Assembly (NCBI GenBank): GCA_021324885.1
Contig: JAJPIF010000009.1
Span: 1 to 64,000, forward strand
Reading direction: 5' to 3'
DNA length: 64,000 nt
Origin: Pseudomonadota bacterium
GTDB lineage: Bacteria; Desulfobacterota; Binatia; Binatales; Binataceae
The notes below the pieces were generated by a model. The model was not told the DNA's origin, did no database searches, and worked only from the letters and a program-made list of their open reading frames with translations. Below are positions 15,322 to 56,039 of this stretch, one piece after another (the stretch's first letter is position 1; every line of letters starts with the position of its first letter). The position numbers and the translations under genes were made by a program.

Positions 15322-15401
15322 GCTCGATGCCTTGGACCATCGTAGGCGAGGCCGCTATTCTAAAGGCTGCGTCTCAAATTTCTACCCGGTGGTCCTGGAG
15401 C

Positions 15402-17060
15402 ATGAATGTTTCCCCTTTGGCTGGCACCTTCGCCACTGCTGCGATGTTGGTCAATGTTGCGCGGTTGGTGACGGCTTACTATGCGGAGCGGCCTGACCCG
15501 TCGATTCCCCAGCAGCGCGTTGCGTTCGGCACCTCGGGGCATCGCGGCTCCGCCTTTGACTGTGCATTCAACGAAGCGCACATCCTTGCGATCACCCAGG
15601 CGATTTGCGCCTACAGGGCGGGGCAGGGGATCGACGGCCCGCTGTTTCTCGGTATGGACACTCACGCGCTGTCCGAACCCGCGTTCGCCAGCGCGATGGA
15701 GGTGCTGGCGGCCAACGGCGTCGAGACCATGATCGACCGCGAGCGCGGCTACACGCCGACTCCCGCCATATCGCACGAAATCATCAATTACAATCGCGGC
15801 CGCAAGCGGGGACTGGCCGATGGAATCGTGATCACCCCCTCGCACAACCCACCTCGCGATGGCGGCTTCAAATACAATCCGCCTCACGGAGGACCGGCCG
15901 ATACCCAGGTGACTGCCTGGATCGAGCGGGAAGCAAATCGTCTGATCGCCGACAATCTGCGCGGGGTAAAGCGTATCGCTTTGGCTCGCGCGCTGAAGTC
16001 CTCGACCACGCACGACTACGATTACATCGACGCCTACGCCACAGACCTCGATCAGGTCATAGATATGCAGGCGATCCGCGACGCCGGAATCAGGATCGGA
16101 GTCGATCCGCTGGGCGGCGCGGGTGTGCATTACTGGGGTGCGATCGCGGATCGTTACCGGCTCGCGATGGAAGTGGTGAACAATTGCGTCGATCCCACCT
16201 TCCGCTTCATGACCCTGGATTGGGACGGCAAAATCCGGATGGATTGCAGCTCGCCGTATGCAATGGCGAATCTGGTTCGGATGCGCGATCGCTTCGATAT
16301 CGCCTTTGCCAATGACACCGATCACGATCGGCATGGAATCGTCAGTCCTACAGCCGGTTTGATGAATCCCAACCATTACCTCGCGGTCGCAATCAATTAC
16401 CTGTTCGCCAATCGCAGCGGATGGAACAGGAACGCCGCGGTCGGCAAGACATTGGTGAGCAGCAGCATTATCGATCGCGTCGCGGGCAGGCTCGGACGCA
16501 GGCTGGTGGAAGTTCCGGTCGGCTTCAAATGGTTTGTCGAGGGCCTGCGCAGCGGCGAGTTAGGGTTCGGCGGCGAAGAAAGCGCGGGAGCCTCTTTCTT
16601 GCGGCGCGACGGCACGGTGTGGACTACTGACAAGGACGGCATGATCATGGGGCTGCTGGCGGCGGAGATGACCGCGCGCACCGGCCGCGACCCCGGAGCG
16701 CATTACCAGGAATTGACGCAGGAATTCGGCGCGCCGCTCTACGAGCGCATCGACGCCCCCTGCACGCCCGAGCAAAAGGCGATTCTCAGCAGGCTGTCCC
16801 CGGATCAACTGCGCGCCGACCAACTTGCCGGCGAGAAGATTCGCGCCACGCTCACAACTGCGCCGGGAAACAACGCTGGCATTGGTGGACTGAAGGTCGT
16901 CACGGATAACGGATGGTTCGCAGCCCGTCCTTCCGGAACCGAGGATGTCTATAAAATCTACGCCGAGAGTTTCCGCGGACCGGACCACCTAAGGCGTATC
17001 CAGGACGAGGCACAGGCGCTAATCGCGCAAGTGTTTAAATCGGCGGCCAACAAAGCGTGA
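15402..17060 (+). CDS. pgm: Phosphoglucomutase (alpha-D-glucose phosphate-specific)
   Basis: The ATG at 15402 is preceded by CTGGAG and gives 552 residues, close to E. coli Pgm, with which it aligns from the N-terminus ([15 protein letters not shown]). Active-site elements are all present: the substrate-binding [10 protein letters not shown], phosphoserine loop ITPSHNPP, magnesium loop DTDHDRHG, sugar-binding GGEESAGAS and phosphate-binding [15 protein letters not shown]. It interconverts glucose-1-phosphate and glucose-6-phosphate. The glucan phosphorylase encoded about 100 bases downstream releases glucose-1-phosphate, so the two form a glycogen-use pair. Confidence 0.95.
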
Positions 17061-17158
17061 ACGAACGACAGGAAAATAGCTTGGCGCCGCGACCACGAAG
17101 TCGTTAAGATCGAATCGATCATCTTCCGGACATCGTTCAGTAGAAATGTTCCGGTGGA

Positions 17159-19705
17159 ATGGTCGAAATGAGTACACAATTAATGCCGCACTTCGATTAC
17201 GAATTACTGCCGCAAAACGTCGAAGGCGTCGAGTACCTCGCCGAGCTGGCACTGGATCTGCGCAATTCCTGGGACCATGGCGCCGACCAGATCTGGAAGG
17301 CACTGGATGCTGAGTTGTGGGCATTGACCCACAACCCCTGGCTCGTTTTGCAAACCGTCTCACGCACCAAGCTCAAGAAACTGGCTGAGGACAGCCGTCT
17401 GCGTGCCGAGGTCGCCAATCTGATTGATGAGCGCCGCAGGCGCCAGGAAGTGCCGCTGTGGTTCACGCAATCCTATCCCGACACTGCCCTGTCCTGCGTT
17501 GCCTATTTCAGCATGGAATTCGGCCTAAGCGAGGCGCTGCCAATTTACTCCGGCGGCTTGGGCAATGTGGCAGGCGATCAGCTCAAGGCCGCCAACGACC
17601 TGGGCGTGCCGGTGGTCGGAGTCGGCCTGCTTTATCAGCAAGGCTATTTTCGGCAGTTCATTGATGCTGACGGGAATCAGACCGCGCTCTATCCTTACAA
17701 CGATCCGGGCCAGTTGCCGATAACCGCCGTCCGCGACGCCGAGGGCGAATGGTTCCGGCTCGGCGTCAATATTCCCGGAGGCAAATTGTGGCTGCGCGCA
17801 TGGCAGGCGCAAGTTGGACGCCTGAGGCTTTATCTGCTCGACAGCAACGATCCGGCCAATTCCCCGGTCGACCGCGGCATAACCAGCGAACTGTACGGCG
17901 GCGGTCCGGAGTTGCGCCTGCGCCAGGAGCTGATCCTGGGAATTGGTGGATGGCGCCTGTTGCGCGGATTGGGGATCAACCCCGAGGTATGCCACCTGAA
18001 CGAAGGACATGCGGCGTTCGCCGTGCTGGAACGGGCGCGCGATTTCATGGCCGACAGCCGCCAGTCCTTTGCCGTCGCGCTGGCCGTGACTCGCGCGGGG
18101 AACCTGTTTACCACGCATACTCCGGTTCCTGCCGGCTTCGACGCCTTCGCCCCGGCGCTTATGCGTCGTTATCTCGGAGCGTACGCCGAGCAAGCTCTGC
18201 GGATCGGATTTGACGATCTGATGGCGTTGGGGCGCAAAAACCCCGCCGACCACGACGAATCTTTCAATATGGCCTATCTAGCCATCCGCGGCAGCGGCGC
18301 CGTCAACGGCGTCAGCCGGCTGCATGGTGAGGTCAGCCGTGGCATTTTCCAGGACTTGTTTCCGCGCTGGCCGCGGATCGAGGTTCCGATCGGTCATGTC
18401 ACCAACGGTGTGCATACGCCGTCCTGGGACTCGGTGGATGCCGATCGCCTGTGGACCGAAGCATGCGGTGCCGATCGATGGCGCGGCACGATGGAATGCG
18501 TTGAGGCCAGCATGCGCAAGGTTTCCGACTCCGAACTGTGGAAGATGCGCTGCACCAATCGCGCTGAACTGGTTGAGTATGTGCGTCGCCGCTTATCCCG
18601 CGACCTGGCCGCGCGCGGTACTCTCAACCCAACCTCGGTCGACAACATCTTCGATCCCAACCGCCTGACCATCGGCTTCGCCCGCCGTTTCGCGACTTAC
18701 AAGCGGCCCAACCTGCTGTTGCACGATGCGGACCGTCTGATCCGCATCCTGACCAATCCGCATCGCCCGGTTCAGATCGTCGTCGCCGGCAAGGCCCATC
18801 CTGAGGATCTTGCGGGACAGGCGATGGTGCGGGAATGGATGCGGTTTGTGCAGCGTCCGCAGGCGCGTCCGCACACGGTTTTTCTCGCCGATTACGACCT
18901 GCGGATGGCGGAGCGTCTGGTCCAGGGCGTCGATTTGTGGATCAACAATCCGCGCCGGCCTTGGGAAGCATGCGGCACCAGCGGGATGAAGGTGCTGGTC
19001 AACGGCGGGCTCAATCTCTCGGAACTTGACGGATGGTGGGCTGAGGCGTACGCGGCTGAAGTCGGTTGGGCGCTCGGCGACGGTCAAACCCACGACAGCG
19101 ACCCCGCCTGGGATGCCCATGAAGCGGATCAACTGTACTCATTATTGGAAAATGAAATAGTTCCCGCGTTTTATGATCGCGACCCAAGTGGCGTTCCCCG
19201 CGGCTGGGTGGCGCGGATGCGCGAAAGCATGGCCCGCTTGACCCCGCAGTTCTCGGCAAATCGAAGCGTGCGGGAATATACGGAAAACTACTACATCCCA
19301 GCCGCCAAAGCCTTTCTCCGGCGCGCGGGCGAACAGGGCGCGATCGGCAGAGAACTTGTGCAGTGGGAGGACCAGCTCCGGCGCCATTGGCCCCAGTTAC
19401 GCTTCGGTACCGTGCAGGTTGAGACCGCCAACGGCGTGCATCATTTTCGCGTGCAGGTGTATACGGACGATCTCGACCCCGAAATGGTCGATGTTCAGCT
19501 TTACGCTGAACCGCTCAACGGCGCCAGCGGGCCCCATCCGAGGTTCACGCGCGGCGAGGCGCTGGTCGGGGCGGTCAGGGGATGGACATTTACCTGCGAG
19601 GTGAAAGCCGACCGGCCGGCGAATGACTATACAGCGCGAATGATTCCTCGCCATAGCGAAGCCGCGATTCCCCTCGAAGCACCGCAGATTCTATGGCAAA
19701 GATAG
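17159..19705 (+). CDS. glgP: Alpha-glucan phosphorylase (DUF3417-containing type)
   Basis: The 848-residue protein opens with a DUF3417-type segment (LPQNVEGVEYLAELALDLRNSW) that marks the short alpha-glucan phosphorylase subfamily. Conserved blocks include AYFSMEFGLSEALPIYSGGLG, CHLNEGHAAF, TTHTPVPAGFD, VTNGVHTPSW and GFARRFATYKRP. The pyridoxal-phosphate site is WEACGTSGMKVLVNGG, whose Lys binds the cofactor. It cleaves terminal alpha-1,4-glucose with phosphate to give glucose-1-phosphate. It follows pgm in the same direction. No glycogen synthase is in the window. Confidence 0.94.
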   Translation: MVEMSTQLMPHFDYELLPQNVEGVEYLAELALDLRNSWDHGADQIWKALDAELWALTHNPWLVLQTVSRTKLKKLAEDSRLRAEVANLIDERRRRQEVPLWFTQSYPDTALSCVAYFSMEFGLSEALPIYSGGLGNVAGDQLKAANDLGVPVVGVGLLYQQGYFRQFIDADGNQTALYPYNDPGQLPITAVRDAEGEWFRLGVNIPGGKLWLRAWQAQVGRLRLYLLDSNDPANSPVDRGITSELYGGGPELRLRQELILGIGGWRLLRGLGINPEVCHLNEGHAAFAVLERARDFMADSRQSFAVALAVTRAGNLFTTHTPVPAGFDAFAPALMRRYLGAYAEQALRIGFDDLMALGRKNPADHDESFNMAYLAIRGSGAVNGVSRLHGEVSRGIFQDLFPRWPRIEVPIGHVTNGVHTPSWDSVDADRLWTEACGADRWRGTMECVEASMRKVSDSELWKMRCTNRAELVEYVRRRLSRDLAARGTLNPTSVDNIFDPNRLTIGFARRFATYKRPNLLLHDADRLIRILTNPHRPVQIVVAGKAHPEDLAGQAMVREWMRFVQRPQARPHTVFLADYDLRMAERLVQGVDLWINNPRRPWEACGTSGMKVLVNGGLNLSELDGWWAEAYAAEVGWALGDGQTHDSDPAWDAHEADQLYSLLENEIVPAFYDRDPSGVPRGWVARMRESMARLTPQFSANRSVREYTENYYIPAAKAFLRRAGEQGAIGRELVQWEDQLRRHWPQLRFGTVQVETANGVHHFRVQVYTDDLDPEMVDVQLYAEPLNGASGPHPRFTRGEALVGAVRGWTFTCEVKADRPANDYTARMIPRHSEAAIPLEAPQILWQR

Positions 19706-42492: not shown

Positions 42493-44166
42493 TTACTCGT
42501 ATAGCCAGTCGGGATCTTCTGGATGCTTCAAATCCCACAGCGGGCGGCGGCTATGCACTTCGGGTTCCTTCGCGTAGTTGTACTCAGGCGGCGGCGAGGT
42601 CGTGGACCATTCCAGCGTCCATGCGTCCCATGGATCGGGCCCCGCCTCCTCGCCGCCCGCCAATGAATAACCCACGTTGACGACGAAGATCAACACGGCC
42701 AGGGCTTGAACCAATGCGCCGATTGAAGCAATCAGATTGATTCCTTCAAGTCCGCGTCCGGGCTGATAAGTATAGATCCGACGAGGCATTCCGTGCAGCC
42801 CGGCGAAATGCAGCGGGTCAAAGGTAAGATGGAAGCCGACCAGGAACAGCCAGAAGTGCCATTGTCCCAGCCGCTCGTTCAACATCCGTCCGGTAGCCTT
42901 GGGGAACCAGTAATAAATCGCCGCGAAAATCATGAAAACGATCGCGCCGACCAGAACGTAGTGAAAATGCGCGACCACGAAATATGTATCGGTCAGTTGC
43001 CAATCGAACGGGGCCACCCCGAGCATGATGCCGGTCAGTCCGGCAACCAGGAATTGAAACAGAAATCCCAGGCTGAACAGCATCGGCACCCGGAACCGGA
43101 GTTTGCCGCCCCACATCGTACCAATCCAATTAAAAATTTTGATTCCGGTCGGAACCGCAACCAGCATCGTCGAGGTGGCGAAGAACGCGTTACCCGCCGG
43201 CGTCAACCCGACCGCGAACATGTGATGCGCCCACACGCCCATGCTGATGAACGCGATCGCGCAGGACGCTGCAACCATCACCTGGTAGCCGAAGATCACC
43301 TTGCGTGAAAATACCGGGATAATCTCCGAGGCGAATGCAAACACCGGGATCACCAGGATGTAAACTTCCGGATGGCCGAAAATCCAGAAAAAATGCTGCC
43401 ATAGGATCGCCGAACCGCCCGCCTGCGTGTCGAAAAAATGCGCGCCCAGGTAACGGTCGAGCAGCAGCATTACCTGCGCCGCTGACAGCGGCGGCAGCGC
43501 GAGCAGCATCATGAACGCCACCACCACAGCGAGCCAGACCAGCACCGGCATCTTGCCCAGCGTCATCCCCCTGCATCGGAGGGAAAATGTCGTCGCGATA
43601 ATGTTGATCGCCGTCGCCGTTGAGCCGACGCTGGTCAAAAGAATGCTCAGGATCCAGTAGTCCGTGCTGTTGCCGCGCGAGAAGGCGCGCTCCGTCAGCG
43701 GCGCGTACGCAAACCATCCCACGTCGGGCGCGCTGCCAGCGCCGTAAAGGCCGTCACCGCCGATATAGCTGAAGTACAACAACAGCGCGCCAAAAAACCA
43801 TAGCCAGAAGCCGAAGGAATTCAGGCGCGGGAAAGCAAGGTCGCGCGCGCCGATCATCAGCGGCACAAGGTAATTGAAAAACCCCGTGAGGATCGGCATC
43901 CCGACCAGAAACACCATCGCCGTGCCATGCATCGTCATCAGGCGATTGAACACCTGCGGCGACACCACGTGATTGTCCGGAACGGCGAGCTGAAGACGCA
44001 TGGTCAAAGCCTGCAGACCGGCGATGACGAAGAACAGCAATCCGCCGCCGATGTACATCAGGCCCAGCCGCTTGTGATCGACCGTGATTACCCATTCATG
44101 CAGGCGCCCAAGCATCGGCAGCGGCGCGGTGCTTTGCAATTCTCCCAGTGCTATTTCAGTTGCCAT
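42493..44166 (-). CDS. Cytochrome c oxidase subunit I (A1-type haem-copper oxidase)
   Basis: The 557-residue protein is the catalytic subunit. Visible are TMHGTAMVFLVGMPILTGFFNYLVPLMIGARD (haem-a His), FFWIFGHPEVYILVIPVFAFASEI (Cu-B His with the A1-type Glu and the cross-linked Tyr), MGVWAHHMFAVGL (two Cu-B His), and YFVVAHFHYVLVGAIVFMIFAAIYYWFPKATGRML (haem ligands). The GHPEV form and conserved residues place it with A1 oxidases, which pump protons through D and K channels. It follows subunit II directly with no gap. Confidence 0.95.
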   Translation of the reverse strand: MATEIALGELQSTAPLPMLGRLHEWVITVDHKRLGLMYIGGGLLFFVIAGLQALTMRLQLAVPDNHVVSPQVFNRLMTMHGTAMVFLVGMPILTGFFNYLVPLMIGARDLAFPRLNSFGFWLWFFGALLLYFSYIGGDGLYGAGSAPDVGWFAYAPLTERAFSRGNSTDYWILSILLTSVGSTATAINIIATTFSLRCRGMTLGKMPVLVWLAVVVAFMMLLALPPLSAAQVMLLLDRYLGAHFFDTQAGGSAILWQHFFWIFGHPEVYILVIPVFAFASEIIPVFSRKVIFGYQVMVAASCAIAFISMGVWAHHMFAVGLTPAGNAFFATSTMLVAVPTGIKIFNWIGTMWGGKLRFRVPMLFSLGFLFQFLVAGLTGIMLGVAPFDWQLTDTYFVVAHFHYVLVGAIVFMIFAAIYYWFPKATGRMLNERLGQWHFWLFLVGFHLTFDPLHFAGLHGMPRRIYTYQPGRGLEGINLIASIGALVQALAVLIFVVNVGYSLAGGEEAGPDPWDAWTLEWSTTSPPPEYNYAKEPEVHSRRPLWDLKHPEDPDWLYE

Positions 44167-45237
44167 CTAGCGCAGGCTCTCCAGGTAACTGGTGATAGCG
44201 TCAATATCTGCCGCGCTCAGATTCATCGCCGGCATCAGCACGCCGGGTTTGATCTGATCGGGATCCTTGATCCAGATGTGCAGGTTTTCCGGCGTATTCA
44301 TCGCCGCACCCGCCGCAAGTGTTTCGCGGCTCATCAGATGGGTCAGATCGGGGCCGAAATGGCCATTGGCGATTGTTCCGCGCACCATGTGACAATTCAC
44401 GCATGCCGTTGACTCAAAAATCCGCCTCCCGCGCGAAGCCGCCAGCGACTCCTCGGCAGGTTTTTGCTGCATCGCGACCCATCGCTCCCAGTCCGCGCGG
44501 GACTGGACCACAACGCGCAGCAGCATCAAGGCGTGTTCGGTGCCGCAGAACTCGGCGCACTGGCCCAGGTAGGTTCCGCTCTGATGCGGCGCGATCCACA
44601 TCGTGTTTTTTCGGTTCGGAATCAGGTCGGTTTTGCCGGCCAGACGCGGCACCCAGAAGCTGTGGGCGACGTCGGCCGATTCCAGTTCCAGAAAAGTCGG
44701 AGCCGGATTGTCGCCGTCACTTACCGGAACGTGGATCTCGTTGGCGGTCACGATGCCGAGGCCCGGGTAACGCACCTCCCACCACCATTGATGGCCGATC
44801 ACTCGCACCTTGAGCGCACCAGGTGGCGGTGTCGCGGCCTGCACCGTGTAAATGGTTCGGGCGGTGGTTAAAATCAGGACAAAGACGATGAGTACCGGAA
44901 CCGCCGTCCACGCCAGTTCCATCGGATTGCTGCCGTAAACCTGTGGCGGTTCGCTTCCATCGTCGCCCTCACGCGCGCGGAATCGAACGATGCTGTAGGC
45001 GATGAGACTCCCGACTACCAGGGCGATGCCGGCGCAGATCGAAATCACGAACCACGCCAGGGTATCGATCGCGTAAGCCGGCGTGGAAACCGGCGCAAAT
45101 ACGTAGGGCTGCGACAGCCTGGAGTTGGACGCCCCCATCCCCCAATCCGAAGCGAACACGCGGACTGGAATGAACGCAGCAATCAGCACCAGAAAGCGGA
45201 GGCCGAATTCAAGCTGCTTTTTGGCGAGACTTCGCAT
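44167..45237 (-). CDS. Cytochrome c oxidase subunit II with fused cytochrome c
   Basis: I chose the ATG at 45237 (preceded by GAGGGCAATTG), which gives 356 residues with a signal peptide (FGLRFLVLIAAFIPVRVFA); the longer frame has no homology. Two membrane helices precede the cupredoxin domain with the Cu-A ligands in VAHSFWVPRL and GQCAEFCGTEHALM. A C-terminal cytochrome c with CVNCHM and a MPAMNL axial Met follows, as in caa3 oxidases. It accepts electrons from the di-haem cytochrome. It is the first gene of the eight-gene operon; its promoter should lie in 45238-45395. Confidence 0.93.
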   Translation of the reverse strand: MRSLAKKQLEFGLRFLVLIAAFIPVRVFASDWGMGASNSRLSQPYVFAPVSTPAYAIDTLAWFVISICAGIALVVGSLIAYSIVRFRAREGDDGSEPPQVYGSNPMELAWTAVPVLIVFVLILTTARTIYTVQAATPPPGALKVRVIGHQWWWEVRYPGLGIVTANEIHVPVSDGDNPAPTFLELESADVAHSFWVPRLAGKTDLIPNRKNTMWIAPHQSGTYLGQCAEFCGTEHALMLLRVVVQSRADWERWVAMQQKPAEESLAASRGRRIFESTACVNCHMVRGTIANGHFGPDLTHLMSRETLAAGAAMNTPENLHIWIKDPDQIKPGVLMPAMNLSAADIDAITSYLESLR

Positions 45238-45395
45238 CAATTGCCCTCGATCCTGGATTGCGCGGCGTCGATCGCGCACGATACGCTTCAGATTGGCTGT
45301 GTTCCAGACCTGGTCGCGCCCCAGGCGCAAATGTGGACCCCTGATTTCACCAACCCAATCCATCGTTAGCGCTGGGGCGAAAAAAGAACAATCCT

Positions 45396-47453
45396 TTACA
45401 ATTCGCGCGTCAGCAAAAGCACGTCGAAGCGGCCGCGCTCGACGCTCCATCCGGGAGGCACTGTGATCGTCGTATCCGGTTCCTCGATTATCATCGGTCC
45501 TCGCTGCCGCTGCGTGATCTCATCGCGGCCCAGCACCGGCGTATCGACGAGGCCGTGTTGGCGGCCGAAATAGGCCTGGCGGGTGACTGCGCGCTGCGCG
45601 CGCGACCGCATCGCCGATGGAGCTGCGGCGCCGACCGCCTCGGCGAAGGACAGATGGCCCGACGCGCTTTTCGCGCGCAGGCGCAGATTAACCAGGTGCA
45701 GATCGCCCTCGCCTTCAAAGCCGAACTCGTGCCGATGCGCTTCGCGGAACTCGCGCTCCAAAGCGCTCAGATCTTTATCCGCCTCGGGCGGAAAGGGCAG
45801 CGTCAACTCGTCGCGCATAAAGCCGACGCGCAGGTCCGCCGAACGCTCGAAGATCATGTCCGTGGAAGGAATGCCCTGCTCGGCGAATTCGCGACGCGCC
45901 TGCGCCTGCAGTTCACGGTAGATTTGCACGACTTCGGGCGCAGTCACTCTGACAATCTGGCGCTCGACGCTGCGGATATAATCCAGCCGCGAATTGGCCA
46001 GCAGCAAGCCCAATGCGCTGAACAAACCCGGATAAGGCGGGATCGCAACCCGCTCGATGCCGACGCTCTCGCACAACGCCGCGGCGTGAATCGGTCCGGC
46101 GCCGCCGAAGGCCACCAGCGTCATCGCGCGGATATCGTGTCCGCGCTCGGTGGAGACGGCGCGCAACGCCCGCATCATTGAAGCATTTGCCACCTCGACG
46201 ATTCCGAATGCCGCGGTCATCAGGTCGAGACCGAGCGGTCCCGCAACATGCCTTTGAATCGAATCGATTGCGGCCTGCCGGTTGATACGCAAGGTGCCGT
46301 CAGCGATGCGGTCCGGATTCATGTAACCAAGCACGACGTTGGCGTCGGTCACGGTCGGCTGCGTTCCGCCGCGTCCGTAGCAGGCCGGACCGGGCTCGGC
46401 GCCGGCGCTGATCGGCCCGGCCCGCAGGGCACCGGCATTATCGATCCAGGCAAGACTGCCGCCGCCGGCGCCAACTTCCACGATATCCAAAGTCGGCGCG
46501 CGCAGCGCGTGACCGGTGCCGCGCACCGCCACGGCCGCGACGCCCCCGCCCACCTCGCCGCCAGCTTTTTCCAGCGGTTGGCCATTGCGGATCAGGCAGG
46601 CCTTGGCCGTGGTCCCGCCCATGTCGAAGGACAACACGCTTTCAAGTCCCATTTCAGCGGCCAGACGCGCCGCTGCCAGCACTCCGGCCGCCGGTCCCGA
46701 TTCGACCATGAACATCGGGCGCTGGCGCGCCATTTCCGATGTCATCGTTCCGCCGTTGGACTGCATGATCAGCAATCGGCGGCTGAACGGCGCCAGGTGC
46801 TTTTCGAGCTGATCGAGATAACGATTCACCACCGGCACCAGCGAGGCATTGATCACGGTCGTGCTGGTGCGCTCGTACTCGCGGCATTCGGGATGCACCT
46901 GCGACGACAAACAGACCACCGTGTGCGGCATGGCGCTGCGCACGATGGCGCCCAGTTCCTGTTCGTGCGCCGGATTGATGTACGAGTTGATCAGACAGAT
47001 CGCGATCGCTTCGACCTTCGCCGCAATCAAGGCGTCAATCACCTGCCGGGCCTCGCGATGGTCCAGGCGCTGTTCGACGCTGCCGTCGGCCAGGATACGC
47101 TCGGCTACCTCAAAACGCAGCCGGCGCGGAACCAAAGGCGGCAGCCGCTCCCAGTTTATGTCTTCGAGCGACGGCGCCTTTTGATTCATCATTTCGAGCA
47201 CGTCGCGAAAGCCTCGCGTGGTGATCAGCGCGGTGGGCGCCGTCTTGCGCTCGATCACGGCGTTGGAGGCGGTGGTGGTGGCGTGGACGAAATTCTCCAC
47301 AGCCTCGCCCGCGCCCAAACCTTTGATGCAGGCGACGATATCCTCGCCTACCCGATCCAGCAGCGACAGCACTTTGGCAGTGTGGATCCGCTTGTCTTGT
47401 CCCAGCGCGATGACGTCGGTGAAAGTGCCACCAATATCAAATGCAACGCGCAT
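45396..47453 (-). CDS. hyuA: Hydantoinase/oxoprolinase family protein, A subunit
   Basis: A strong GGGAGGG precedes the ATG at 47453. The 685-residue protein is a HyuA-type ATPase: MRVAFDIGGTFTDVIAL (phosphate loop of the actin/hexokinase fold), NAVIERKTAPTALITTRGFRDVLEM, VLSFDMGGTTAKACLI, and TLVAFGGAGPIHAAALCE. Such proteins are the ATP-binding half of N-methylhydantoinase, 5-oxoprolinase or acetone/acetophenone carboxylases, so the substrate is open. It lies downstream of hyuB in the same direction with about 40 bases between. Confidence 0.92.
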   Translation of the reverse strand: MRVAFDIGGTFTDVIALGQDKRIHTAKVLSLLDRVGEDIVACIKGLGAGEAVENFVHATTTASNAVIERKTAPTALITTRGFRDVLEMMNQKAPSLEDINWERLPPLVPRRLRFEVAERILADGSVEQRLDHREARQVIDALIAAKVEAIAICLINSYINPAHEQELGAIVRSAMPHTVVCLSSQVHPECREYERTSTTVINASLVPVVNRYLDQLEKHLAPFSRRLLIMQSNGGTMTSEMARQRPMFMVESGPAAGVLAAARLAAEMGLESVLSFDMGGTTAKACLIRNGQPLEKAGGEVGGGVAAVAVRGTGHALRAPTLDIVEVGAGGGSLAWIDNAGALRAGPISAGAEPGPACYGRGGTQPTVTDANVVLGYMNPDRIADGTLRINRQAAIDSIQRHVAGPLGLDLMTAAFGIVEVANASMMRALRAVSTERGHDIRAMTLVAFGGAGPIHAAALCESVGIERVAIPPYPGLFSALGLLLANSRLDYIRSVERQIVRVTAPEVVQIYRELQAQARREFAEQGIPSTDMIFERSADLRVGFMRDELTLPFPPEADKDLSALEREFREAHRHEFGFEGEGDLHLVNLRLRAKSASGHLSFAEAVGAAAPSAMRSRAQRAVTRQAYFGRQHGLVDTPVLGRDEITQRQRGPMIIEEPDTTITVPPGWSVERGRFDVLLLTREL

Positions 47454-47496
47454 CACAACCCTCCCACCGGAAGACCGTATCAGCCGCGACGATGGG

Positions 47497-49221
47497 TCAG
47501 GCGGCGTGCGCGCGTCGGCGCAATTCTTTGGTGGCGCTGGTATCGACCGACATCGTGACCGGATCGATCACGACGCCATACTGGTCGCGCGCGGTTTGGA
47601 TCGACAGCTTGTCCTCGCGCACGTCCTCCAGCACGGCGGCCGGATCCCGCGTCATCGGATCGCCATGTCCCGCAGCGCCGCACACCTGATGGTAGAGGCG
47701 GTCGCCCGCCTTGACCTCCAGATGCATATGCGATTTGCGCGGCAGTTCCATCTGCTCGCCGTCAAGCGGAGTGAACAGGTTGCACGACGGCGCCCCCTGC
47801 GCCCCGCCCGCCATCCCGACCGCGCTCTGAAACGGCCGGTTTGTGCGCACCATGATTTTGGCCGGATGCAGAAAGCGGTAGCTTTTGAAAATGCCAAGGG
47901 ATCCGCGATGGCGTCCGGCGCCGGCCGTATCCGGCACCAGTCCGAATCCTTCCACCACCACCGGGACCTCGCGTTCGACCAGCTCGGCAGGTACAGAGAT
48001 GTACGACATGCCGGCGCCGTCGATCCCGTCCCTGGCCGGCCGCCCGCCCCATCCGCCCCACACCAGGTCCATCGTGGTGTATTCGCTGCCGTCAGGGCGG
48101 TAGCCCGACATGTGCACGATGTCGCCACCTTCCTGCGGCACCGAGACGCGATCGGGAATCGCTTCAGCCAGCGCCAGATGGATCAGTTCGGTGATCAGAA
48201 AGAAGAGCGGCGCGCGTCCGCCGACGGCGGCGGGGAATCTGGGATTGGCCAGCGTGCCTGGCGGCGCGATCACCTCGATCGGCTTGACGAAGCCGGCGTT
48301 GAACACCACGTCGGGTGCCAGGATTTTATGGATCGTGCTGAACACCTGTCCCAGCGTGTTGCTGTAGGGCATGTTGATCGCGCCCTTTGCCTGCGGCGCG
48401 GTACCGGTAAAGTCAACGATCAATTTGTCAGGCCGAAAACGCAGCGCTGCTCGAATCGGCATTTCGACACCGTCGCTGCCGAAACCGTCGTCGCGCAGGA
48501 TGACCTCGCGCGCGTAATCGCCGGGCGGCACTTCGGCAATCGCGCGCCGCGCGGCCTGCTCGCCGTACTCGACCAGGTAATCGAAACAGGCGTTGACGTT
48601 CTCCACCCCATATTTTTCCAGCACGGCCTTGAACTCCCGGATCCCGCGATGACACCCGGCAAGCTTCGCGTCGATATCGCCCATCCATTCGTCGGCGGCG
48701 CGGACGTTGGCTTTGAGCAACTGCACCAGGGCCTCATTGCGCACGCCGCCGTCATATAATTTGAGATTGGGCAGGCGGATGCCTTCTTCGTATGTCTCGG
48801 TGCACTGGCTGGAGAATCCGCCCGGAAAGCGGCCTCCGATATCGGTCTGATGCGAGTAGATAATGACGAAGCCCGAGACTTCCCCGCGATGGAACACCGG
48901 CATGATCAGGATCACGTCGGGCATGTGCGAGGCGCCGGCGTAAGGGTCGTTGGCGATAATCACATCGCCTTCCTTGAAGCTGCCGGCAAACTTGGCAGTT
49001 ACGAACGGCATCAGATGCATAAACACCGACGTCGCCATCGAATGCGACTGGCCCAGCCCGACAATGCGGCCCTGGTAATCGGCCAGCGAGGTCGCGAAAT
49101 CGCCCACCCGCAACATCGAGGAGCGCGCCGTCTTATACACCGCGATCGCCATCTCCTCGGTGATCGCCGCCATTTCGTTGCGCAGGACTTCGATCAGGAT
49201 TGGATCTGCCGTGCGGGTCAT
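47497..49221 (-). CDS. hyuB: Hydantoinase B/oxoprolinase family protein, B subunit
   Basis: The 574-residue protein is the HyuB partner: RNEMAAITEEMAIAVYKTARSSML, YQGRIVGLGQSHSMATSVFMHLMPF, DVIIANDPYAGASHMPDVILIMPVF, and DFTGTAPQAKGAINMPYSNTLGQVFSTIH. The acidic/His cluster in NDPYAGASHMPD binds metal in solved relatives. With HyuA it would use ATP to open or carboxylate its substrate. No third (gamma) subunit gene is present, which speaks against an acetone carboxylase. A purine/pyrimidine-rich repeat lies upstream (49230-49440). Confidence 0.92.
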   Translation of the reverse strand: MTRTADPILIEVLRNEMAAITEEMAIAVYKTARSSMLRVGDFATSLADYQGRIVGLGQSHSMATSVFMHLMPFVTAKFAGSFKEGDVIIANDPYAGASHMPDVILIMPVFHRGEVSGFVIIYSHQTDIGGRFPGGFSSQCTETYEEGIRLPNLKLYDGGVRNEALVQLLKANVRAADEWMGDIDAKLAGCHRGIREFKAVLEKYGVENVNACFDYLVEYGEQAARRAIAEVPPGDYAREVILRDDGFGSDGVEMPIRAALRFRPDKLIVDFTGTAPQAKGAINMPYSNTLGQVFSTIHKILAPDVVFNAGFVKPIEVIAPPGTLANPRFPAAVGGRAPLFFLITELIHLALAEAIPDRVSVPQEGGDIVHMSGYRPDGSEYTTMDLVWGGWGGRPARDGIDGAGMSYISVPAELVEREVPVVVEGFGLVPDTAGAGRHRGSLGIFKSYRFLHPAKIMVRTNRPFQSAVGMAGGAQGAPSCNLFTPLDGEQMELPRKSHMHLEVKAGDRLYHQVCGAAGHGDPMTRDPAAVLEDVREDKLSIQTARDQYGVVIDPVTMSVDTSATKELRRRAHAA

Positions 49222-50297: not shown

Positions 50298-51485
50298 TTA
50301 TTCGCGCATTTTGCGGTCTATAATTGCTTCGCAATCAGCGATTATCGCGCGACTCGCCTCGCGCCTGGCAAACCGGTTAAGCGCTTGCGACAGCGACCTC
50401 CAGCCTATTTCATCGTGCAATAGCCGATTCATTTCGCCAAACAGCGCGTCTGGCGCCCATTCGGTTTGCCAATTAACGCCGGTGACCTGCGCGAAGGCGG
50501 CCAGGTTGGAAGCCTGATGGTTATTCGCGGCAGTTGGTAGCGGGACCAGGAGCACCGGAAGACCTAATACAGCTACTTCTGACATAGTCGAAGCGCCTGA
50601 GCAGGCGATCGCGAAGTCAGCCCAGCTGTAGGCCTCCGCCATGTCATCAATGAAAGGCGTAACGACCGCTTTCAGGCCCGCCTTACGGTACGCCTCACTC
50701 ACGCTTTGGCAATCCTCGGATCCACTCTGATGGAGAACTTCCAAGTCAACGCCGATAGCGGCCAGACGCTTCAGGAACGGGGGAGTCCGCCGGTTGAGAA
50801 AGGACGATCCCTGCGAACCGCCAGTCACCAGGATACGCAACGGATGGCCGGGGGCCGGAAACGGGCGGGGCCGTCCGGCCAAAGCGGCCACATCAGGCCT
50901 CACTGGATTGCCAGTGACGACCACCCGTCGACGATCGAATTGGGTGGCGGCGGCCTCGAAGCCCAGGTAAATACGATCGACGAAGCGGCCCAGCAACCGG
51001 TTGGCAAGCCCCGCAACCGCGTTACATTCATGAATCGCCGTGGGCAGGCCGAGGCTGCGCGCCGCCAGGATCGTGGGCACGGATGCATAACCGCCGAAAC
51101 CAATCACCAGATCGGCTTTGGCTGCCGTCAACTTTTGACGTGCCGCCAGGACCGCACCGCCCAAACCTGCGATCGTGCGTACTTTTCCCAGCAGATTTTC
51201 GCCGAAGATCGGTCGGCTGCGCACCAACTCCAGCGGGTACCCATAGCGGGGCACCAGCGTTGCCTCAAAACCTTCCGGCGTGCCAAAGAACAGCAACTGG
51301 ACCGACGGCACCTGTTCTTTGTACGCGTCAGCAACCGCCAGGGCTGGATACACGTGTCCCGCCGTTCCCCCGGCAACCAGCACGACCCGGCGCAAAGGTT
51401 TGGCAAGGCCGTGGGAATACGGTACGGCCCGTAAAGAAGCCGGCGCTATGGCCTGACCGCTGCGCAGCAGCTCGGTTGACGGCAT
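50298..51485 (-). CDS. MurG-like GT28 glycosyltransferase (divergent paralogue)
   Basis: The 395-residue protein has the two Rossmann domains of MurG: VLVAGGTAGHVYPALA (residues 36-50), FGGYASVPTILAA, VVVTGNPVRPDVAAL, ILVTGGSQGSSFLN (219-231), HQSG and FIDDMAEAYSWAD. At key MurG positions it differs. GGTGGH has become GGTAGH, the HEQN motif is HECN (152-155), the RxGA motif is CSGAST (295-300), and the D-D-H-Q motif is N-N-H-Q. There is a 30-residue N-terminal lead and no cell-division or peptidoglycan genes. It lies head-to-head with ALG1- and ALG2-like genes. Transfer of GlcNAc to a lipid-linked sugar, the step done by the MurG-fold ALG13/ALG14 pair in eukaryotes, is a reasonable inference. 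An orphan true MurG is the alternative. Confidence 0.8.
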   Translation of the reverse strand: MPSTELLRSGQAIAPASLRAVPYSHGLAKPLRRVVLVAGGTAGHVYPALAVADAYKEQVPSVQLLFFGTPEGFEATLVPRYGYPLELVRSRPIFGENLLGKVRTIAGLGGAVLAARQKLTAAKADLVIGFGGYASVPTILAARSLGLPTAIHECNAVAGLANRLLGRFVDRIYLGFEAAATQFDRRRVVVTGNPVRPDVAALAGRPRPFPAPGHPLRILVTGGSQGSSFLNRRTPPFLKRLAAIGVDLEVLHQSGSEDCQSVSEAYRKAGLKAVVTPFIDDMAEAYSWADFAIACSGASTMSEVAVLGLPVLLVPLPTAANNHQASNLAAFAQVTGVNWQTEWAPDALFGEMNRLLHDEIGWRSLSQALNRFARREASRAIIADCEAIIDRKMRE

Positions 51486-51682
51486 GGCGGCAAATAGCTA
51501 TCAAAGTGTCTGGCTTTAATCAATCCTTAACTGTTTTAGACTGGTTTATAAAATGGCATCCTCGACTAGCGGCGTTTGCGGCCTCCGGCATGCTCCAGCC
51601 TCAATCGCCGGGGGCAATGTAGACGCTCGCGCCGGCTGTCAACGGGATCGACGGTAGCTTTTGTCGGCGAGCAATAGCTTGA
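51486..51682. promoter_or_regulatory. Divergent promoter region between the GT28 and ALG1-like genes
   Basis: The 197-base spacer has an AT-rich core (about 51495-51560) in a GC-rich neighbourhood. It contains TTAACT and, further on, TTTATAAAAT on the plus strand; the spacing (about 14-15 bases) is short for a good -35/-10 pair. Divergent control of both glycosyltransferase units from here is likely, but no exact promoter is claimed. Confidence 0.3.
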
Positions 51683-52960
51683 ATGAACCCTGAGCACAAG
51701 AGCAGGCGAGTGGCGGTGGTGGTGCTGGGCGACCTCGGCCGCAGTCCACGGATGCAATATCACGCGCTGGCCCTTGCCGACAGCGGGATGGAAGTTGATG
51801 TCGTCGCTTACGCGGGCAGCCCTCCTCTGCCGGAACTTTGCGCCAATCCGCGCATTCATCTCGACCTTTTTGACGCCCCCGGCACGGGACTTGTTCCCGG
51901 GAACGCGCACGCCGCGACGCTGGCCCGGATGGCCTGGCGGCTGTTTCGGCAATTCTCGCACCTGTTGTGGACATTGGGTTGGCGCCTGCCCAAACCGGAC
52001 TTCGTCCTGGTCCAAAACCCGCCGGCCATTCCAACTTTGCTGGCGGCCCTGGTTGCGTCCCGTCTGCGCGCGGCGCGGCTGGTGATCGATTGGCATAATT
52101 TCGGCTGCTCGATGCTCACTCTGAAGCTGGCTGCGCAAAGTCCGCTGGTCCGCCTGGCGCGATGGTATGAACGGGGCGTGGGCCGGCGCGCCGACCGCCA
52201 TCTATGTGTTTCGCAGGCCATGCGCGCCGAATTGGCCGAGCATTGGGGAATCCCCGGAGCGATCGTGCTGTATGACCGCCCAGCCGCCCGGTTTGTCCCG
52301 GCGCCGGCTGCGGTGCGGACCGACTTTTGCCGCCGCATCAGTGCCGAACTGGGCCTGCGCTGCGACGGCGATCAGCGTCCGGCCCTGGTAGTTTACCCGA
52401 CGAGCTGGACCCCGGATGAAGACTATCCACTGCTGTTGGAGGCGGCTCGCAAGTGCGAGCAGATGATCAACCGCGACCACCAAAGCGGCGCGCAACGTCC
52501 ATTTCCGGACCTGCTGATCGCGATCACCGGCCGGGGACCGCTGCGCGATCTATACCAGCAGGAAATCGCGCGCCTGGGACTGAAGAAGCTGCACCTGCGA
52601 ACGCTGTGGCTCTCGCCGCAGGATTATCCGCTGATGCTGGGCGCCGCTGATCTGGGTCTGTGCTGCCATCGATCGTCCTCCGGTGTTGATCTGCCGATGA
52701 AGATTGCCGATATGATGGGCGCGGGCTTGCCGGTGCTGGCGCTGAATTATAGCGCGTGTCTGGCCGAGCAGGTGCGCGACGGCGAGACCGGTTTGCTGTT
52801 TGCCGACGCGGACCAACTGGCCAGTCAACTCTATGAACTGTTGCGGGAGTTTCCGGCCGCGCCACGGCTAAAGCGGCTGCGTGACAACGTCCAAAGCTTG
52901 CGGCCGCTGCACTGGGAGGAGGGATGGAAGCTGGAGGCCGCGCCGATTTTCGCGGTTTGA
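51683..52960 (+). CDS. ALG1-like beta-1,4-mannosyltransferase (eukaryote-type)
   Basis: The 425-residue glycosyltransferase matches eukaryotic ALG1 nearly end to end. It has VVVLGDLGRSPRMQYHALAL (about 13-31), VQNPPAIPTL (110-119), LVIDWHNFGCS (133-143), LARWYERGVGRRADRHLCVS (158-177), a YDRPAARF segment, TSWTPDEDYPLLLEA (240-254), ITGRGPLRDLY (281-291), CHRSSSGVDLPMKIADMMG (328-346) and GETGLLF (367-373). In yeast and humans these same blocks define GT33, which adds the first mannose to GlcNAc2-PP-dolichol on the cytosolic face. The N-terminal membrane anchor of the eukaryotic enzyme is absent. Downstream is an ALG2-like gene. The donor and acceptor here are inferred by homology only. Confidence 0.88.
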   Translation: MNPEHKSRRVAVVVLGDLGRSPRMQYHALALADSGMEVDVVAYAGSPPLPELCANPRIHLDLFDAPGTGLVPGNAHAATLARMAWRLFRQFSHLLWTLGWRLPKPDFVLVQNPPAIPTLLAALVASRLRAARLVIDWHNFGCSMLTLKLAAQSPLVRLARWYERGVGRRADRHLCVSQAMRAELAEHWGIPGAIVLYDRPAARFVPAPAAVRTDFCRRISAELGLRCDGDQRPALVVYPTSWTPDEDYPLLLEAARKCEQMINRDHQSGAQRPFPDLLIAITGRGPLRDLYQQEIARLGLKKLHLRTLWLSPQDYPLMLGAADLGLCCHRSSSGVDLPMKIADMMGAGLPVLALNYSACLAEQVRDGETGLLFADADQLASQLYELLREFPAAPRLKRLRDNVQSLRPLHWEEGWKLEAAPIFAV

Positions 52961-54195
52961 TTATGGGTTCCCACTACCGCGTCGCCTTCATCCATCCCGA
53001 CCTCGGTATCGGGGGCGCCGAGCGTTTGGTGGTCGACGCTGCGATGCATTTGCGCGGGGCCGGACACCGCGTGGCCGTGTTTACCGCGTCCCACGACCGC
53101 AATCGCTGCTTCGACGAAACCACCGACGGCAGCCTCGACGTGCACGTGTGCGGACAATTCCTTCCGATGCAGATCGGCCAGCACCTGCGGGTTCCTTGCG
53201 CGATCACTCGAATGGGCTACGTGGCGGGACGGATAGCAGCCGGCACGGATCGATTCGACGTTGTTTTCTGCGATTTGGTGCCACATATAATTCCGATTTT
53301 GCGGTTTTTTACCGGATCCAAAATTCTATATTACTGCCATTACCCCGATCAGCTCGTAGCGCCCCAACGCGCGGGATGGTATCGCTGGTATCGCGCACCA
53401 ATCGATCGCCTGGAGGAGATCACCACGGGGATGGCCCATCGGATTGTGGTCAACAGCGAGTATACCGCAGCCGCGTTTCGCCGCATCTTTCCGCGGCTTA
53501 AGGGACACGCCCTGGAAGTTGTATATCCCGGCGTCAATGTGGACCTTTACGATCAGGCCGCGCAAACCGACTGCGAACCCACCGCTCAAATCACCATCCT
53601 GTCACTTGGCCGTTATGAACCCGCCAAGAATGCCGCTTTGGCGATCGCAGCGCTTGCGCAATTGCGCACCTGCCTGGCGGCTGAATTGTTTGACCGTATC
53701 CAACTGGTGATAGCGGGCGGATTCGATGAGCGTCTGGCAGAATGCCGCCGCACGATTGCCGATTTGCAGGCGGCGGCCCGTTGCCACGGGCTGGAGCGCC
53801 AGGTCAAGCTCCTGAAATCGTTGTCCAAAGAGGAAATCCTGGTGCTGCTCTCGCGCAGTTTGTGCGTCGTTCACACCGCGCCGCATGAACATTTTGGTTA
53901 CGTGCCGCTCGAAGCGATGGCGGCCGGGCGTGCGGTGGTGGTGGCCAACACCGGCGGCCCCGCCGAAACCGTGGTGGACGGCGTGACCGGCTTCGTGCGT
54001 CCGCCTACGCCCCAGGACTTCGCCGGCGCCCTTGCGCAACTGATACGCGACCCGGCCGCGGCGCGGCGGATGGGCCAGGCCGGACGCGATCATGTGCGCG
54101 CGCGTTTCTCCCGCGCCAGCTTCGGGGCCGGATTGGAGCGCGTCATCGATCAGGAAATGCGCGGCGAAACCTCCGGCTCATGGAGGCAGGCGTGA
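52924..54195 (+). CDS. ALG2-like GT4 mannosyltransferase (eukaryote-type)
   Basis: The product aligns by eye along its length with eukaryotic ALG2: FIHPDLGIGGAERLVVDAAM, FDVVFCDLVPHIIPILRF, KILYYCHYPDQLV, YRAPIDRLEEITTGMAHRIV then VNSEYTAAAF, LSLGRYEPAKNAALAI, VIAGGFDERLAE and EHFGYVPLEAMAAG (the E-x7-E donor site). ALG2 adds the second and third mannoses in dolichol-linked oligosaccharide assembly. Two starts are possible. ATG 52924 has GGAGG 4 bases upstream and overlaps the ALG1-like gene by 37 bases; ATG 52963 follows that stop by two bases and starts right at the homology. Either way the two genes are coupled. The gene overlaps the flippase gene by four bases. Confidence 0.87.
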   Translation: MEAGGRADFRGLIMGSHYRVAFIHPDLGIGGAERLVVDAAMHLRGAGHRVAVFTASHDRNRCFDETTDGSLDVHVCGQFLPMQIGQHLRVPCAITRMGYVAGRIAAGTDRFDVVFCDLVPHIIPILRFFTGSKILYYCHYPDQLVAPQRAGWYRWYRAPIDRLEEITTGMAHRIVVNSEYTAAAFRRIFPRLKGHALEVVYPGVNVDLYDQAAQTDCEPTAQITILSLGRYEPAKNAALAIAALAQLRTCLAAELFDRIQLVIAGGFDERLAECRRTIADLQAAARCHGLERQVKLLKSLSKEEILVLLSRSLCVVHTAPHEHFGYVPLEAMAAGRAVVVANTGGPAETVVDGVTGFVRPPTPQDFAGALAQLIRDPAAARRMGQAGRDHVRARFSRASFGAGLERVIDQEMRGETSGSWRQA

Positions 54196-56039
54196 CCGGA
54201 GCGCTGCATAAAGCGCGCAGCTCGATCTTTGCGACCTTGCGTCAATGCGTGGCGATGTTGCCGGCGTCGATGCGTTGGAAATGGGCGGCACTGATTCCGC
54301 TCTCGCTGCTGACCGGAATCGTCGAGGCCGGCGCCGCCGCCGGCGTCTTTGCCTTAATCAAGATCATCGACAGCCCGGCCCAGATCGCCCATTCGCGCCT
54401 GGCGGCCACTATCGCGGCCGTTCTGCCCGGCCTCACCGCGCGCGGGCAGTTGCTGTTGTTTACCGTTCTGCTGGCGCTCTATTACGTGGTCAAGAATCTG
54501 CTGGTGATCGGCACCCAGTACCTTCGCCATAAAATCGCCGGTGAATCGACCGCGCAGCTCAAGTCCACCATGCTGAGGGGCTATTTGTTCGCCCCTTATC
54601 CATTTCACCTGGGCCGCAACTCCGCCGATCTGATTTCGAACACCAACTTCTGCGTCGAGATGGCGTGCACCGAGGCGATGGAGGCGGCGGTGGCCGCCGG
54701 CTCTGAACTGCTTACCGCCGCTGCAATCACGGTGGTGCTGCTGGTGATGGCCCCCAAGGTAACACTGTTAGCAAGCGGTTTTCTGCTGGCATTGATCCTT
54801 CTGCTGCTGCGGCTGACGCGGCGGATGGCCGAATACTACGGAACCCAACGCCATCAGCTTGAACGAACCGCCCTGCAGACCCTCCAGGAGGCGCTGGGCG
54901 CGATCAAAGAAGTCAAAACTTTGGGCCGCGAGAACTTCTTCTATACCAGGTTCCGTGCGCAGCAGTTCGGGTTGGTGAAGCTCGGTTACATTGGCAGGAT
55001 GCTGGAAACCATGGTGCCACCGGTGACAGAAACCATTTTTATTTGCAGCGCGCTGCTGGTAGTCGCGCTGATTACCGGAACTGCGAAGACCGCCGCGCAA
55101 GGCGCGCCGCTGTTGGGGCTGTTTGCCTATGCGGCTTTTCGGGTCGTACCCGCCGCCAATCGCGTCGGATGGCGAATCAACCAGGTGCGCGCCGCCGCGC
55201 CGTCGGTACACCGCCTTTACCAGGATTACATGCTGGTCGCCGCCGCGCCGGCCAGGCCCGTCGAGCCGCGCGCGCCCCGTCCGCGCTTTCATCAGAGCAT
55301 CGCGCTCGACCACGTCTCATATACGTTCGCGGGTGCCAAGACCGCGGCTGTGCAGGACGTCAGCCTGGCCATCGAATTCGGCGAATCGGTTGGGATCGTG
55401 GGCCCAACCGGTGCCGGCAAAACGACGCTGGTGGATCTCGTGGCGGGGCTGCTGCAACCGACATCCGGCCGTATTCTGATCGATAGCGAGGATTTGAGCG
55501 GCCGGCTCGCCGCCTGGAGGGCTGACATCGGCTACGTTCCGCAGTCGATTTTCCTGCTCGACGACACCTTGCGGCGCAATATCACGCTAGGAATCGACCA
55601 GGCCGAGATCGACGAGGCTCGGGTGCGCACCGCCGTTCGTATCGCGCAACTGGAGCGGCTGATCGCCGAACTGCCCCAGGGCCTTGACACCCCCGTGGGC
55701 GAGCGCGGGATGCGGTTGTCGGGCGGCGAACGCCAGCGCATCGGTATCGCGCGCGCGCTTTATCACGATCCGGGCCTGCTGATCTTCGACGAAGCGACTT
55801 CGGCGCTGGATAATGCCACCGAGGCCGCGATCAATGAAGCGATCGAAGCGTTGCATGGGAAAAAGACTCTGCTGGTCGTGGCCCACCGCCTGAGCAGCGT
55901 GCGGCGCTGCGATCGGCTGGTACTCATGGCGGAGGGACAGGTCAGGGCCTGCGGTTCGTATGATGCGCTCCTGCGCGATTTCCCGGAGTTCCAACGCATG
56001 GTGCGCGCCCAGGATCGCGTCGATCCGCTATCAAATTAA
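54192..56039 (+). CDS. PglK-type ABC transporter (lipid-linked oligosaccharide flippase)
   Basis: I chose GTG 54192: GGAGG (54182-54186) stands five bases ahead, and the GTGA overlaps the previous stop. The product has 615 residues: a six-helix membrane domain (about 28-345) and an ATPase domain with [17 protein letters not shown] (Walker A, about 403-419), the Q-loop in [27 protein letters not shown] (signature) and [14 protein letters not shown] (Walker B). The segment [19 protein letters not shown], just before the ATPase, resembles the R-x-x-P-x-x-N-R segment of Campylobacter PglK, which flips lipid-linked glycans. It most likely moves the glycolipid made by the adjacent transferases to the periplasmic side. 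Confidence 0.88.

Follow-up and report, generated by a model that had tools for sequence, protein, structure and literature searches.

In MurG, the HEQN motif is described as the loop for lipid I, the acceptor (PMC8256705; PMC8993221), the GGS motif forms part of the UDP-GlcNAc site (PMC8256705), and the histidine of GGxGGH is essential both in MurG and in Agl24 (PMC8993221). In the eukaryotic pathway, Alg7, Alg13 and Alg14 make GlcNAc2-PP-dolichol, to which Alg1, Alg2 and Alg11 then add mannoses while discriminating between acceptors (PMC6472349), and Alg1 is described as acting on the chitobiose-PP-lipid (PMC6472349; PMC8458739). With regard to origins, a murG duplication has been raised as a possible source of the split EpsE/EpsF enzymes and, through them, of Alg13/Alg14; the same study could not establish which prokaryotic proteins are closest to Alg1 (Lombard 2016, PMC4973528).

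Here we describe MurG2, a MurG-clade gene in a window of 64,000 nucleotides (the whole stretch of DNA that was analysed; contig JAJPIF010000009.1 of assembly GCA_021324885.1, GTDB family Binataceae). We consider MurG2 to be, probably, a copy of MurG that was recruited to lipid-linked-oligosaccharide assembly for STT3-type protein N-glycosylation. A literature search by titles and starts of abstracts, with bioRxiv and most subscription papers outside its scope, yielded no description of an STT3 cluster with a MurG paralogue or of a bacterial ALG1.

The MurG2 protein and its signature motifs

The original prediction described a MurG paralogue at positions 50298-51485 with altered motifs (GGTAGH, HECN, CSGA and NNHQ) and a retained GGSQG. 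This description was confirmed. The product, 395 amino acids long and encoded by an intact ORF in the ORF list of the window, matches both the N-terminal and the C-terminal GT28 domains of Pfam and scores 264.4 bits with the NCBIfam murG model TIGR01133 (cut-off 250.25). Among five MurG2 proteins scored with this model, those of L003 (261.1 bits) and L207 (255.0 bits) also lie above the cut-off, and those of L161 (250.0 bits) and L162 (240.4 bits) lie below it. The MurG-type fold, which the same prediction had taken to be retained, is supported by an AlphaFold model (mean pLDDT 88.7) whose first PDB matches are the MurG structures 1f0k, 1nlm, 7d1i and 3s2u. The input alignment of this model consisted of 22 rows, mostly canonical MurG (the window protein and 21 of 24 candidate rows, with L025, L058 and L019 left out because of stops). 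The gene and the positions considered below are as follows.

50298..51485, minus strand: MurG2, a MurG-clade GT28 glycosyltransferase, proposed to be a UDP-GlcNAc:GlcNAc-PP-polyprenol GlcNAc transferase
51354..51371, minus strand: GGTAGH loop, residues 39-44; canonical GGTGGH, loop His retained
51210..51212, minus strand: Pro92, common to MurG2; mostly Gly in canonical MurG
51021..51032, minus strand: HECN loop, residues 152-155; canonical HEQN, acceptor-side loop
50805..50822, minus strand: GGSQGS, donor GGS loop, residues 222-227
50592..50603, minus strand: CSGA, residues 295-298; canonical RxGA
50514..50525, minus strand: NNHQ, residues 321-324; canonical mostly DDHQ

We compared alignment columns of nine MurG2 proteins with those of 123 canonical MurG rows. 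The glutamine of HEQN (residue 154), present in 116 canonical rows, is replaced by A, C or S in all nine MurG2 proteins, and residue 92, which is G in 105 canonical rows, is P in all nine. Residue 227 is S in 8/9 MurG2 proteins and A in 123/123 canonical rows; residue 42 is A in 7/9 and G in 120/123, and two MurG2 proteins have an unchanged GGTGGH. The arginine at residue 295 occurs in every canonical row, and MurG2 has C (five proteins), T (one), S (one) or a gap (one) at this position, with R retained only by G439. The diagnostic changes in the window protein are accordingly G42->A, G92->P, Q154->C, A227->S and R295->C, and it retains H44, E153, N155, G226, E303, Q324 and N327. Across the nine MurG2 proteins, H44, E153, G226, E303 and N327 are identical in 9/9, and S224, Q324 and N155 in 8/9. 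We assume that E303, Q324 and N155 touch UDP-GlcNAc.

The expectation that a housekeeping MurG would keep all of these motifs held in part. The second-to-last G of GGTGGH, the Q of HEQN and the R of RxGA largely distinguish canonical MurG from MurG2. The His of HEQN, the DDHQ motif and the Gln of GGSQG were dropped as diagnostics because they vary among canonical MurGs: H occurs at residue 152 in 76/123 rows, Q at residue 225 in 36/123, and the DDHQ positions read D in 110, D in 82, H in 91 and Q in 123 rows. For example, the canonical MurG of the window's own genome reads MEQN and DRQQ at the HEQN and DDHQ positions. In MurG2, residue 321 is variable and residue 322 is D in 5/9.

As judged from the alignment, MurG2 retains the predicted catalytic loop and the GGS motif and changes an acceptor-side residue. 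The changes are not restricted to the acceptor side, since A227, beside the donor GGS, is altered in 8/9 proteins. Decay into a pseudogene is ruled out by the intact ORF, the retained loop His and donor GGS, and the fact that the changes are common to relatives.

A separate canonical murG and the MurG2 clade

MurG2 was noted to lie away from peptidoglycan genes, and the suggested look for a second, canonical murG in the same genome revealed a housekeeping copy on a different contig (G000:C27:41710-42777). Because this copy sits flanked by ftsW and murC, the window gene is an extra copy, and MurG2 as the only murG of the genome is ruled out. In 8/8 typical class genomes, the dcw context (ftsW-murG-murC) is held by the other copy and not by MurG2. 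In the order (41 genomes), a single MurG match was found in 37 genomes and none in two (G036 and G038), and only the window's genome had two full matches; G008 had two partial matches, located on different contigs and covering different parts of the query.

With a MurG2 profile over 148 genomes of the class, eight matches stood out (367-708 bits). The next match (G440, 319 bits) was a canonical murG by context. Three MurG2 genes stood out in a phylum sample of 395 genomes. We confirmed 83 relatives and kept 80 loci, 79 of which contain an ftsW or murC match; the sole locus without one (L003, from a Terriglobia MAG of the Acidobacteriota) was also the sole locus with GT4a, the ALG1-like gene described below. 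Canonical context was verified for these 79 loci, as well as for L002 and L212-L220.

A tree was computed from 58 of 133 rows, including 48 of the 123 canonical rows; the short rows L019, L061, L065 and L079 had been left out of the alignment. The nine MurG2 proteins together with a divergent protein of G058 were separated from all 48 canonical rows with a branch support of 100/99, and the nine typical MurG2 proteins without G058 received only 79/16. In this sequence tree MurG2 forms one clade apart from canonical MurG, the G058 relative included. Its members come from 9/148 class genomes (eight typical and the divergent G058) and from the Acidobacteriota MAG.

Neighbourhood of MurG2 and co-occurrence with STT3

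MurG2 was also predicted to lie head-to-head with ALG-like genes, and GT4a indeed diverges from it across 197 bp. The genes beyond MurG2 are as follows.

51486..51682, no strand: divergent intergenic region between MurG2 and GT4a, 197 bp, from the window ORFs
51683..52960, plus strand: GT4a, an ALG1-like glycosyltransferase by similarity to a provisional ALG1 reference; proposed first mannosyltransferase
52924..54195, plus strand: GT4b, an ALG2-like glycosyltransferase by similarity to a provisional yeast Alg2 reference
54180..56039, plus strand: ABC exporter half-transporter of MsbA/PglK type by model scores and PglK alignment; candidate flippase

GT4a and GT4b overlap by 37 bp, and GT4b and the ABC exporter gene by 16 bp. 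We compared nine loci (the window, L161, L162, L207-L211 and L003). The divergent MurG2-GT4a pair was found in 8/9, that is, in 8/8 loci in which both genes are readable; in the ninth (L211, G458), the contig stops about 200 bp beyond MurG2. STT3 lies within the MurG2 locus in 8/9, with the window's own locus as the exception, an ABC exporter lies near MurG2 in 7/9, GT4c in 5/9, GT4b in 4/9, and a WecA-like PNPT in 4/9 (G132, G462, G501 and G515). In G462, for example, the consecutive order is GT4c, ABC, GT4a, MurG2, STT3, PNPT. The linkage with STT3 and an ALG1-like GT4 that would be expected of a MurG-derived GlcNAc transferase of lipid-linked-oligosaccharide assembly was thus found across loci. 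The four genes from MurG2 to the ABC exporter have a GC content of 61.1-64.6% (window, 61.0%), and the GC3 of MurG2 (65.9%) is lower than that of seven other measured window genes (70.5-79.0%). Foreign or eukaryotic contamination is unsupported, because the GC content fits the window, the overlaps are operon-like and several bacterial genomes share the gene set.

Several further features of these loci were observed. A tandem pair of STT3 genes stands beside MurG2 in G515 (L210:10810-16403), and the G132 cluster contains an FkbM-type methyltransferase gene (L162:14953-15834), possibly acting on the glycan. Elsewhere in the window, a phosphoglucomutase/phosphomannomutase gene is followed by a carbohydrate phosphorylase gene with DUF3417 (15327-19705), and genes for cytochrome oxidase subunits 1 and 2, the latter with a cytochrome c domain, adjoin hydantoinase A/B genes (42493-49221).

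The references used here for human and yeast ALG1 and, in part, for yeast Alg2 are provisional sequences rather than database entries, and the comparisons made with them serve as partially checked leads. The human ALG1 reference matches PMC8458739 in its length (427+37=464) and in five residues reported there. Against these provisional references, the window GT4a was 39% identical to human ALG1 over 444 columns (303 bits) and 34% identical to yeast Alg1 (225 bits), and nine GT4a proteins were 32-44% identical to human ALG1. As controls, 19 GT4 proteins from genomes of the order reached at best 42.7 bits with the human ALG1 reference and 52.0 bits with the yeast Alg1 reference; 200 shuffles in the ALG1 comparison reached at most 27.7 bits. 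The window GT4b was 34% identical to the partial yeast Alg2 reference over 439 columns (216 bits), and three GT4b proteins were 34-35% identical to it; the same reference gave at most 39 bits with GT4c and at most 33 bits with control GT4s.

In a tree, 13 GT4a proteins and the two ALG1 references were split from nine control GT4s (92/99, not starred). GT4a alone was recovered as a group in 0% of the 200 bootstrap trees, in which inner support was low and two rows were eukaryotic; with the same two eukaryotic rows, GT4a alone as a group was not rejected by the AU test (p 0.238). Neither GT4a nor GT4c matched a PDB chain at E<=0.01, and no NCBIfam model exceeded 35 bits with GT4a. Assignment of GT4c as ALG11 is unsupported: the ALG11 model of Pfam does not appear among the listed Pfam matches (E<=0.001), and the similarity to the Alg2 reference is weak. 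The best models for the ABC exporter were MsbA (271 bits) and others including PglK (248 bits), all far below their cut-offs. Its residues 92-589 align with PglK (5c73, E 7e-65), and ABCB-type exporters score higher; by these comparisons it is not closest to PglK.

The window's genome has an STT3 gene on contig C13 (84.7 bits with the Pfam model), unlinked to MurG2. Its product retains the WWDYG and acidic motifs, which we take to be the catalytic motifs of STT3, and WWD is found in 11/11 STT3 proteins aligned. On the PglB equivalog model it scores 22 bits (cut-off 1300). Directly after this gene, about the first 56 residues of GT4c are encoded, followed by a stop (L113:10517-10681), which resembles a leftover of this cluster, as if the cluster had broken up. 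The Terriglobia STT3 has a different C-terminal core domain and barely aligns with that of the window's genome; used as a query, it found no match in this genome, in which the Pfam model did. Because these two proteins differ, the link with MurG2 appears with two kinds of STT3.

We found STT3 (PF02516, E<=1e-8) in 21/148 class genomes, including 8/8 typical MurG2 genomes (hypergeometric 4e-8, relatedness ignored). In the phylum sample, STT3 (E<=1e-12) was found in 53/395 genomes, including 3/3 MurG2 genomes (hypergeometric 0.002). In thirteen class genomes STT3 occurs but MurG2 does not; one STT3 place was examined in each, G452, G453 and G487 having more than one. In three genomes of family f109 (G450, G451 and G453; loci L249, L256 and L247), STT3 occurs with GT4a and a PNPT, to which an ABC gene is added in G451 and G453 and GT4c in G451; the GT4a sequences of this family form their own group in the tree. 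G452 has a PNPT and STT3. In G522, pieces of GT4c, ABC, GT4b and GT4a lie beside STT3, and the contig stops at GT4a. G036, of the same family as the window's genome, has a strong solitary STT3 (105.8 bits) and, at 88% completeness, lacks a MurG match at E<=0.001. The other seven genomes (G474, G475, G476, G482, G483, G486 and G487) have a different STT3, to which the L003 query alone gave a weak match; the rest of the cluster queries matched nothing at these places. Because some STT3 clusters lack it, MurG2 is optional in clusters of this type.

One alternative is that the lipid-linked glycan ends in an exported polysaccharide or glycolipid and not in an N-linked protein glycan. It would fit G058, in which the divergent MurG2-clade gene lies in one region with ABC, GT4a, GT4b and GT4c (L259, C43) and no STT3 was found at E<=1e-8, and it would fit the unlinked STT3 of the window's genome. 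However, STT3 lies within nearly all MurG2 loci compared and WWD is kept throughout the aligned STT3 proteins, and we therefore regard this alternative as unlikely.

Proposed pathway and its alternatives

We hypothesized that MurG2 acts second in a series of steps. GlcNAc-PP-undecaprenol would be made by a WecA-like enzyme, and MurG2 would add GlcNAc from UDP-GlcNAc to give GlcNAc-GlcNAc-PP-lipid, the linkage being presumably beta-1,4 by analogy with MurG, Alg13/Alg14 and Agl24. The product would be extended by the ALG1-like GT4a and then by the ALG2-like GT4b and/or GT4c, probably with mannose, after which the ABC exporter would flip the glycan lipid and STT3 would transfer the glycan to protein. 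The acceptor, linkage, order of steps and sugars are what we infer here: GlcNAc-PP-lipid is proposed as the acceptor because an ALG1-like next step and, in 4/9 loci, a WecA-like first step neighbour MurG2. Because ALG1 works on GlcNAc2-PP-lipid, MurG2 most likely makes GlcNAc-GlcNAc-PP-polyprenol and so adds the second sugar of the protein-linked glycan. The original prediction of GlcNAc transfer to a different lipid-linked sugar is thus supported by the linkage of the clade to ALG1-like GT4, ABC and STT3 genes and by the separate canonical murG in 8/8 genomes, with the acceptor suggested by the neighbours.

Candidates for the first step were considered. The G132 PNPT scores 121 bits with the WecA model, more than with archaeal MraY (78 bits) or MraY (66 bits) and below all three cut-offs; those of G462, G501 and G515 were recognised by their similarity to it. 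In the window's genome, a PNPT outside the dcw cluster scores 95 bits with the WecA model and 91 bits with archaeal MraY, below the cut-off, and lies on another contig than MurG2. A second PNPT (C27:44211-44780) adjoins ftsW and was taken for mraY by this position. The genome also has one PF02397 transferase, which could likewise start a lipid-linked glycan.

Observations read from sequences speak for the proposed recruitment of MurG2 to N-glycosylation: the genome has another, canonical murG, the MurG2 proteins form a clade, their neighbourhood is conserved, STT3 co-occurs with them, and the catalytic loop is kept whereas the acceptor-side loop is changed. We counted against it the STT3 and extra PNPT of the window's genome on other contigs, the f109 clusters without MurG2, G058 without STT3, the two of five MurG2 proteins below the murG cut-off, the altered A227 beside the donor GGS, R295 in G439, the two proteins with GGTGGH, the ABC exporter being closer to other transporters than to PglK, and the provisional ALG1 and ALG2 references.

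MurG2 might instead belong to the STT3 pathway but carry out a different step or use a different sugar, such as adding a HexNAc branch after GT4a. Because f109 clusters hold GT4a and STT3 without MurG2, GT4a may act without MurG2, or another enzyme may do this step, and the changes at A227, next to the donor GGS, and at R295 would also fit this alternative. However, the GGS serine (8/9), E303 (9/9), and Q324 and N155 (8/9 each) are kept, and eukaryotic Alg1 is described as acting on chitobiose-PP-lipid (PMC6472349; PMC8458739); we consider this alternative improbable.

An equally improbable role is that of an alternative lipid II synthase for special conditions, like MglA of Kitasatospora and Streptomyces, a MurG homologue outside dcw, about 31% identical, that is able to substitute for murG (PMC8092295). 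The MurG fold and family match would agree with such a role. However, the window protein lacks the HEQN, RxGA and GGTGGH set that marks MurG as lipid II synthase, residue Q154 in the acceptor loop is changed in all and R295 in most MurG2 proteins, the placement is conserved with ALG1-like GT4 and STT3 genes and not with cell-wall genes, and STT3 is present in all eight typical class genomes.

If recruitment to N-glycosylation is correct, a peptidoglycan enzyme belonging to the MurG clade was drawn into the glycosylation of proteins, and close homologues of ALG1 and ALG2 occur beside MurG2 in bacteria, in a gene set that resembles the yeast and human glycosylation pathway. This set would offer a concrete bacterial candidate for the origin of ALG1, left open in PMC4973528, and a chitobiose-core pathway would become testable in E. 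coli. We are close to evenly divided, leaning slightly against, on a wider proposal: that a bacterial ALG-type pathway (WecA-like enzyme, MurG-derived transferase, true ALG1 and ALG2 homologues, ABC flippase and STT3) makes a chitobiose-core glycan, and that eukaryotic ALG1 has a common ancestor with this bacterial line or is derived from it.

Comparison with known systems

A 'MurG-like' Desulfovibrio gene (Ddes_0408), listed in a transcriptome table (PMC5701242), was found to have no bearing on MurG2. MglA resembles MurG2 in being a second, non-dcw MurG homologue beside the canonical MurG; it differs in that MglA replaces MurG in peptidoglycan synthesis (PMC8092295), whereas MurG2 belongs to an STT3-linked cluster. 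With the Campylobacter pgl locus (PglB, PglK), the MurG2 clusters share GT4 enzymes, an ABC half-transporter alignable with PglK and an STT3-type transferase. They differ from it in containing ALG1/ALG2-like and MurG-type enzymes, and in the low score of the STT3 of the window's genome on the PglB model. GT4a and GT4b are similar to eukaryotic ALG1 and ALG2 to the extent given above for the provisional references, and differ from them in being bacterial and in lying in gene clusters.

Alg13/Alg14 and archaeal Agl24 (GT115) would, by analogy, share with MurG2 the proposed reaction, the addition of the second GlcNAc of an N-glycan lipid precursor, and the place in the pathway; the GGH loop and the Glu are also common to them (PMC8993221). 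They differ in that they are reported apart from the bacterial MurG clade (PMC8993221; Lombard 2016), whereas MurG2 scores with MurG. Because both studies set bacterial MurG apart from Alg14-13/Agl24, MurG2 would represent a separate recruitment from within MurG. MurG itself (TIGR01133, CAZy GT28) shares with MurG2 the fold, the two GT28 domains, the loop His, the Glu of HExN and the GGS loop. MurG2 differs from it in its position outside dcw, the loss of the HEQN Q in 9/9, the RxGA R kept in 1/9, Pro92 and the linkage to ALG-like and STT3 genes.
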